Source: Rhea pennata
Taxonomy: Eukaryota; Chordata; Aves; Rheiformes; Rheidae
Assembly (NCBI RefSeq): GCF_028389875.1
Contig: NC_084702.1
Location: 40,857,053-40,921,052, forward strand
Reading direction: 5' to 3'
DNA: 64,000 nt
Within the stretch, counting starts at the first letter, position 1. The number at the start of each line of letters is the position of its first letter. Below, piece by piece: positions 17,761 to 64,000 of this stretch. The translations under genes were made by a program, and so were the position numbers. The notes beneath the pieces were generated by a model. It saw only the letters and a list, made by a program, of their open reading frames with translations. It did no database searches and was not told where the DNA came from.

Positions 17761-17906
17761 ATTTCTTGAAAAAGAGTTGAAATCTTTACATCTGGGAAAA
17801 AGGGCTGTAAGAACTACTATTTCCACTCAAACATTTCTTGAAAAAGAGTTGAAATCTTTACATCTGGGAAAAAGGGCTGTAAGAACTACTATTTCCACTC
17901 AAACAT
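17761..17906. repeat. Perfect two-copy 72-bp tandem duplication
   Basis: Copy one is 17761-17832 and copy two 17833-17904, both starting ATTTCTTGAAAAAGAG and ending CCACTCAAAC, identical at every base, with two further matching bases. Identity indicates a recent event. The period is a multiple of three, so a short open frame crosses it, but the frame shows no domain. Confidence 0.95.
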
Positions 17907-44079: not shown

Positions 44080-44217
44080 AATATATATGTGTGTGTGTGT
44101 ATACGCACACACATGCACGCATACATAATTATATATATACACACACCTTTCTCTCTCTCTCTATATATATCTCTATACACACACACACACACACACACGC
44201 ATATACACACACACACT
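44080..44217. repeat. Compound TA/TG/CA/CT microsatellite
   Basis: Consecutive runs of TA, TG, CA, TA, CT and CA units over about 140 bases. The encoded Thr/His frame is not a gene. Confidence 0.95.
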
Positions 44218-50242: not shown

Positions 50243-50530
50243 CTAGCTACTCTCTGATGAAGTTGGTGGTGCTGTGGAGGAGGATCTCCTTCTTCTTGAC
50301 AAAGACCGTGATCGCTCAGCACTGTAGGCAACATGCTTATCATAATTTTGTATCTGAGCCTCGAGGAAATCCCTCTGCTGCTGGCTGATTGTCTGGCTAA
50401 TCAGTCCTGGGAGAGCTTGAATGCTACCAATTAAAGTTTCCAGTTTAGTTTCCAGAGTAACAATTCTCTTCTCAAAATCTTCGCTTCTTTCATTTAAGTC
50501 AGAAATCATGTCGTACATGATGTTTTGAGT
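50243..50530 (-). CDS. KCNN2: KCNN2 terminal coding exon: coiled coil and Ser/Arg-rich SK2-specific tail, stop codon
   Basis: This is the last exon, with 95 codons and a TAG stop. The acceptor is TTCTACTTTCAG before ACTCAAAAC. It begins [20 protein letters not shown], continues through a heptad-like region ([20 protein letters not shown]) that is a likely coiled coil for tetramer assembly, then a QQQRDF-containing linker, and ends with an arginine/serine block and [10 protein letters not shown]. This tail separates SK2 from SK3 and SK1, whose C-termini differ. Compared with my recollection of mammalian SK2, there are substitutions in the linker (for example SIQAL where mammals have SIHAL, and HVAYSAE where mammals have HVTYNAE) and a leucine interrupting the serine run ([10 protein letters not shown]). 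An ATG open frame seen slightly upstream (to 50554) is intronic read-through and not a start. Confidence 0.97.
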
Positions 50531-52515: not shown

Positions 52516-52585
52516 CTTTGCCAGGTCCACCAAAGTGTTGGCTTGATCATTCAGTTTCCTTTGTTCCATTTTCACACTTCTTAAT
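52516..52585 (-). CDS. KCNN2: KCNN2 coding exon: distal calmodulin-binding helix
   Basis: This small exon of 70 bases consists of one base completing the split Gln codon plus 23 codons. The acceptor is CCACTTTTTAG before ATTAAGAAG, and the donor is GCAAAG followed by GTTAGT. The peptide is [19 protein letters not shown] followed by DLAK. In SK2 this helix completes the calmodulin-binding domain; the family segment around [13 protein letters not shown] contacts the calmodulin N-lobe when calcium is bound. The exon ends in phase 0 and joins the last exon cleanly. The acceptor has no alternative AG nine bases upstream, so an ARK insert cannot come from acceptor slippage here, which supports a separate microexon. 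Confidence 0.97.
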
Positions 52586-54756: not shown

Positions 54757-54762
54757 CATGCA
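54757..54762 (-). promoter_or_regulatory. RBFOX-type splicing enhancer motif TGCATG downstream of the microexon
   Basis: TGCATG in transcript sense lies 50 bases after the donor of the 9-base microexon. It is part of the self-complementary TGCATGCA at 54755-54762. RBFOX proteins bound within about 200 bases downstream of an exon usually promote its inclusion in neurons and muscle, tissues where SK2 acts. The motif is seen; its function is inferred. Confidence 0.5.
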
Positions 54763-54812
54763 GACAGTGGTAAATTCTGCAAATTTAGAAAGGAACAGCT
54801 CATACAACTTAC

Positions 54813-54821
54813 TTCCGAGCT
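54813..54821 (-). CDS. KCNN2: Candidate 9-nt microexon of KCNN2 adding Ala-Arg-Lys (SK2-b type insert)
   Basis: On the minus strand the sequence reads AATAG, then AGCTCGGAA, then GTAAGT, so nine bases are bounded by an AG acceptor and a perfect consensus donor. The phase fits the flanking exons: CA from the upstream exon plus A gives Gln, then GCT (Ala), CGG (Arg), and AA plus the A that begins the next exon gives Lys, then TTA (Leu). The product at the junction is IHQ-ARK-LRS instead of IHQ-LRS. A three-residue ARK insert in the calmodulin-binding domain is, to my knowledge, the defining difference of the mammalian SK2-b splice form, reported to alter calcium sensitivity. The polypyrimidine tract is weak and interrupted by ATGAAAA, which fits an optional exon. 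A TGCATG (RBFOX type) lies 50 bases downstream of the donor. Use of the exon in this species is inferred, not shown. Confidence 0.82.
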
Positions 54822-55525
54822 CTATTTTCATTTTGTTGAAATAAAAAGACAAAACAAAAGAAAACAAACTGTAAAATATACTAAAACAACCAAATGAGCA
54901 CAGTGGGCTCGATTCAGCATGTGGGATGTCCTAGGGACTTGCTACTGCTTCTACTCAGAAACTGCCTCACGTGGTGTCTAATTTGTTTGTGTTTATGAGA
55001 AGGGAATTTGCGGTATGTTGAAACCTTCCCATTAGCTTTCAGCTGTAGATTTTTTTGTATTCATACAATACATAAAGATCCAATATTGTTGTTTAGAGTG
55101 AGTGCCAATTTCACCTTCACTTTATTTAGTGTATATGAGGAGGAAAAAAGATCCAGACCAGCTGAGGGTTGCACAGTCACAGGCAATATATTGACCTTTT
55201 AGGGCTATGAGTTTGGGAGTGCTACCGTGCCCTGCTCTCATTTCTCGTATAATAGTGGCCCTTAGCATCACTCCTTTCATCCCCATCTCCAGCCCAACGG
55301 TTGAGGAAGTGCAGGAGAGAGACCAATAAAAACCTGAGAATCTGGAAAGATGGGAGAGCGCCATATGCTGCGGTGAGTCCCCTGGTCATTTGAGAAAAGT
55401 TCAGAGATGCAAGGGGAGAGCAAACAAATTGCACCCAGCTACTCTGCAGCCACTGGAAGAAAGCAGACTGCTAGAGCAATGTTTCCATCCAAAGCACATT
55501 CCTCAGCATATGGAGAAAGCTATCC

Positions 55526-55834: not shown

Positions 55835-55870
55835 TGTGTGCACGTGCGTGCACGCGCACGCACACACGCG

Positions 55871-55931
<61 letters not shown>
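55835..55931. repeat. (CA)n/(CG) alternating purine-pyrimidine tract
   Basis: About 97 bases of uninterrupted purine-pyrimidine alternation: TGTGTGCACGTGCGTGCACG at the left, then GC-containing CACG units, then about 60 bases of (CA)n with one TA. It sits in the KCNN2 intron about 1 kb upstream of the microexon in transcript direction, where it reads as UG repeats. Such tracts can adopt Z-DNA and bind UG-repeat proteins; both are inference. Confidence 0.95.

Positions 55932-55935
<4 letters not shown>

Positions 55936-57538: not shown

Positions 57539-64000
<6,462 letters not shown>

Follow-up and report, generated by a model that had tools for sequence, protein, structure and literature searches.

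A nine-base microexon of Rhea pennata KCNN2 encoding the Ala-Arg-Lys insert of the SK2-b splice form, and its counterpart in SK1 proteins

Results

Organization of the KCNN2 locus

The window, that is the whole 64 kb stretch of Rhea pennata DNA analysed, carries four coding exons of KCNN2 together with a nine-base exon, AGCTCGGAA, all on the minus strand (Table 1). The five pieces (60618-60508, 57667-57540, 54821-54813, 52585-52516 and 50530-50243) were joined by script, and the resulting frame was open through to the stop codon both with and without the microexon. The intron hosting the microexon is 4,954 nt long and lies between the second and the fourth of these pieces, the two exons that encode the SK2 calmodulin-binding domain. 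On the minus strand the microexon is flanked by an AG acceptor and a GT donor in the context AG/AGCTCGGAA/GTAAGT, and the surrounding letters read ...CAACAAAATGAAAATAG/AGCTCGGAA/GTAAGTTG... The upstream exon closes on CA, its last base being 57540, and the donor there is GTAAGT; the downstream exon starts with an A at 52585, preceded by TTTTTAG, and the split codon CA/A with the nine bases in between reads Gln-Ala-Arg-Lys-Leu. The Ala-Arg-Lys (ARK) triplet would be inserted in frame between AIHQ and LRSV. The initial annotation was reproduced exactly, base for base, as to coordinates, letters, splice dinucleotides, reading phase and encoded peptide.

Table 1. KCNN2 exons and signals associated with the microexon in the window
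Feature	Position	Strand	Evidence or remarks
Coding exon of 111 nt for S6 and the beginning of the C-terminus (GAGCTALVV...TQLTKR)	60508..60618	minus	Frame, splice sites; donor GTAAGT
Coding exon of 128 nt for the initial part of the calmodulin-binding domain (VKNAAANV...FLQAIHQ), with CA of the split codon at its end	57540..57667	minus	
Microexon acceptor region	54822..54863	minus	Pyrimidine-rich tract at -42..-23
Nine-base microexon AGCTCGGAA, Ala-Arg-Lys	54813..54821	minus	Splice sites, frame, peptide match to PDB 3sjq_C
Microexon donor GTAAGT	54807..54812	minus	
TGCATG, presumed RBFOX-type motif, 51 nt downstream of the microexon	54757..54762	minus	Lead only
Coding exon of 70 nt for the remainder of the calmodulin-binding domain (LRSVKMEQ...VDLAK), starts with A of the split codon	52516..52585	minus	
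Terminal coding exon of 288 nt, including the stop codon (TQNIMYD...TSSESS)	50243..50530	minus	

Searches with Rfam at gathering thresholds and with ARAGORN returned no matches over the window, and eight other long open reading frames, hand-picked from 163, showed no Pfam match at E 0.01. A 72-base unit is present twice in tandem at 17761-17906 with a 100% match. The unit might have been duplicated recently, be polymorphic or result from a slip in the assembly. CA/AC microsatellites occur at 44177-44216 and at 55857-55932, the latter inside the intron of the microexon and about 1 kb upstream of it.

The insert corresponds to SK2-b

The joined peptide including ARK was compared with SK2 chains of known structure. 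It was identical at 69 of 69 residues to PDB 3sjq_C, an SK2 chain containing ARK, while the printed alignments to SK2 chains devoid of ARK (1qx7_D, 5wbx_B, 6ale_B and 1g4y_B) matched with a three-residue gap falling exactly at the insert. The insert is moreover covered by the Pfam CaMBD domain (3e-33). We take 3SJQ to be SK2-b, the molecule name in the record itself being only SK2. The assignment of the gene to KCNN2 and of the insert to the ARK of SK2-b, both put forward in the initial annotation, was borne out. Compared with the SK2-b form of rat and chicken, the gene, the insertion point and the three residues are the same, and the only apparent difference is the species.

Inclusion of the microexon would leave the split codon as Gln and bring Ala-Arg-Lys into the calmodulin-binding domain in frame, adding one neutral and two basic residues, while its skipping would produce standard SK2. 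Passages of PMC6048120 attribute reduced calcium sensitivity to SK2-b variants "of rat or chicken", and inclusion would then be expected to lower the calcium sensitivity of the Rhea channel as well. A variant of SK2 with three extra residues is mentioned at cochlear efferent synapses in a passage of PMC8209339, citing Scholl 2014. The excerpted text of a review on cochlear splicing (PMC10018040) names neither SK2 nor KCNN2. The finding is correct as sequence, and the SK2-b microexon is already known, also in birds. The idea that the microexon predates the bird-mammal split was right; this conservation is not new, because chicken SK2-b is already in print according to the same passages of PMC6048120.

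Chance expectation for a nine-base exon

An intronic nonamer merely flanked by AG and GT might read Ala-Arg-Lys by chance, and the frequency of such stretches was therefore evaluated in the host intron and in 2,000 dinucleotide-preserving shuffles of its 4,954 nt. The bare pattern is common, since the strand of the microexon contains 21 AG-N9-GT stretches in this intron, 20 of them stop-free in phase, and an AG-N9-GTRAGT arrangement of any content arose in 358 of the 2,000 shuffles. The splice pattern is accordingly not unusual and by itself is weak evidence. However, a GTRAGT donor follows only one of the 21 stretches, which is the ARK-coding microexon itself, and an ARK-coding nonamer with AG and GT was obtained in just 5/2,000 shuffles, and with a GTRAGT donor in none (0/2,000). 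A slightly wider ARK pattern was found once in the whole window on both strands and at least once in 14 of 100 shuffles. The coincidence of the coding match with the right phase and the right intron is strong evidence, and ARK also occurs at the equivalent place in other vertebrates and in 3sjq_C, so that a chance origin is extremely improbable. We read the nine bases, with a probability of about 0.96, as an alternatively spliced KCNN2 microexon producing SK2-b, which Rhea pennata would use as well.

Distribution of ARK among database proteins

Three protein searches, from which the best 120 of 569, of 133 and of 268 matches were retained, yielded 345 distinct proteins. As each cluster of the database (90% identity) is represented by a single protein, a row without insert is uninformative on its species. 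Alignment at the insertion point assigned the 345 listed proteins to ARK (46), AQK (42), GQK (2), no insert (248), odd (2) or unreadable (5), and the motif A-R/Q-K-L-R was present in 88 of the 345, namely the 46 ARK and 42 AQK rows. Among the matches listed, three frog rows (P0291, P0292 and P0334) read AIHL-AQK-LRS. Among the listed rows without insert, 203/248 read LQAIHQ up to the insertion point and 45/248 otherwise, these being mostly invertebrate-like (LLAIYA and similar), with a few showing a different preceding exon. In the odd rows P0025 and P0060 the usual exon behind the insertion point is missing or unreadable.

Among the matches listed, ARK was found in birds (Aythya fuligula P0134, Oxyura jamaicensis P0124 and P0135, and the manakin Corapipo altera P0235), reptiles (the giant tortoise Chelonoidis P0001 and a gecko, P0165), amphibians (a caecilian, P0181, Xenopus P0196 and P0200, and another frog, P0221), mammals (a vole, P0213) and fishes, the last with 33 teleost rows, including the trout 'potassium channel TSK2' P0250, and the skate Amblyraja P0342. 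Judging by their names, most of the ARK-bearing proteins look like gene predictions. The expectation that automatic annotation would probably miss the microexon was not borne out, as isoforms named by NCBI contain ARK in Aythya fuligula (P0134), in Oxyura jamaicensis (P0124, P0135) and in other species.

The 198 residues of the window outside the insert were identical in 11 of the 239 proteins compared, corresponding to ten bird rows (Mergus, Alopecoenas, Asarcornis, Aythya twice, Cepphus, Oxyura, Apteryx, Anas and Cuculus) and to Crocodylus porosus. The galliform rows P0171, P0173 and P0176 had 196 matching residues outside the insert. The duck proteins P0134 and P0135 carried ARK with 198/198 other residues identical to the window.

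Splice sites and candidate regulatory motifs

The donor of the microexon is near consensus, while its acceptor is unusual, the pyrimidine tract being displaced. Pyrimidines account for 90% of the positions from -42 to -23 and for 40% (8/20) of those from -22 to -3, where the four other KCNN2 acceptors in the window reach 70-80%. This poverty in near pyrimidines is what might be expected of a fossil microexon, formerly used and now always skipped in this species. However, nothing is disrupted in the nonamer, in its two splice sites or in the phase, and two ducks whose flanking protein is identical have predicted isoforms that include the microexon, which makes such a fossil very unlikely, if slightly less so than a chance match. 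For a microexon that is still alternatively spliced, the displaced tract may create a weak site, which together with the good donor would fit regulated inclusion.

Two motifs were considered in this respect. TGCATG, which we take to be an RBFOX-type motif, lies downstream of the microexon (Table 1), and has 27 copies on the same strand in the 64 kb, corresponding to about one chance in eight per 300-nt stretch. An upstream UGC is a sign of the class of neuronal microexons controlled by SRRM4 (nSR100). The KCNN2 microexon resembles this class in size and in belonging to a gene of excitable cells, but differs from it in that the 76 nt before the exon contain no TGC, the nearest being at -79..-77. 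Neither the downstream TGCATG nor the missing upstream TGC is strong evidence.

A similar insert in SK1 and the probable age of the microexon

SK1 (KCNN1) proteins, a different paralogue, carry three residues at the same place of the calmodulin-binding domain as the SK2 ARK, reading AQK or GQK in 44 of the 345 listed proteins (e.g. P0021, P0243 and P0336), with Gln in place of the Arg of SK2. Among the matches listed, rows with the SK1 insert came from mammals, birds, turtles, a lizard, amphibians, and ray-finned and cartilaginous fishes, the GQK rows being those of one catshark and one skate. Cartilaginous fishes hold both kinds of insert, with ARK in P0342, GQK in P0336 and P0305, and AQK in P0244.

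A tree was calculated on 75 of the 345 proteins, hand-picked to include 19/46 ARK, 28/42 AQK, 2/2 GQK and 26/248 rows without insert, the insert having been removed beforehand; it was of the 'quick' type and returned long-branch warnings that included Priapulus and Lampetra. The SK2 clade gathered the 19 ARK rows and nine without insert, with a support of 88, below the star of the tool, while the SK1 clade contained 30 AQK and GQK rows and the SK3 clade 11 rows, both with a starred support of 99. No insert occurred in the SK3 clade (11 of 11 tree rows). On the 75-row tree, ARK versus AQK/GQK required one change, located between the SK2 and SK1 clades; scoring the absence of the insert as a separate state raised the number to 9, which is what a mixture of skipped and included isoforms in the records would give. 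The lamprey rows P0041 and P0049 had no insert among the matches listed, and none was found among the listed invertebrate-like rows, a result that may merely reflect skipped forms on record.

Nine rows named SK2, SK2-like or KCNN2 (P0244, P0246, P0249, P0274, P0280, P0281, P0291, P0300 and P0305) bear an AQK or GQK insert and group with SK1 in the tree; they are probably misnamed SK1 proteins.

The SK1 insert would be encoded by a separate exon too, and the simplest reading is probably that a single microexon preceded the SK1-SK2 duplication. We consider it likely that an ancestral nine-base exon was present before this duplication in early vertebrates and was retained from then on by both genes, as ARK in SK2 and AQK/GQK in SK1, acting as a calcium-sensitivity switch, with SK3 lacking it. 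Under this reading the microexon would be over 400 million years old. As judged from the proteins, the age originally proposed, before the bird-mammal split, is understated, ARK being also present in a skate SK2 and AQK/GQK in SK1. A mouse KCNN1 with an alternative three-residue exon was reportedly described by Shmukler in 2001, and that work may already report the SK1 insert; among the open-access papers listed in our search for the AQK insert, none contained the word AQK.

Conclusions

The raw sequence confirms an exon of nine bases that, according to the literature, alters how strongly a neuronal potassium channel responds to calcium. SK2-b is already known, both in kind and in birds, and the pre-duplication age is the part of possible interest. 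The pair formed by ARK in SK2 and AQK/GQK in SK1 can be used as a marker exposing probably misnamed 'SK2' proteins, and the protein survey suggests that the switch formed by the microexon is much older than the separation of birds and mammals.
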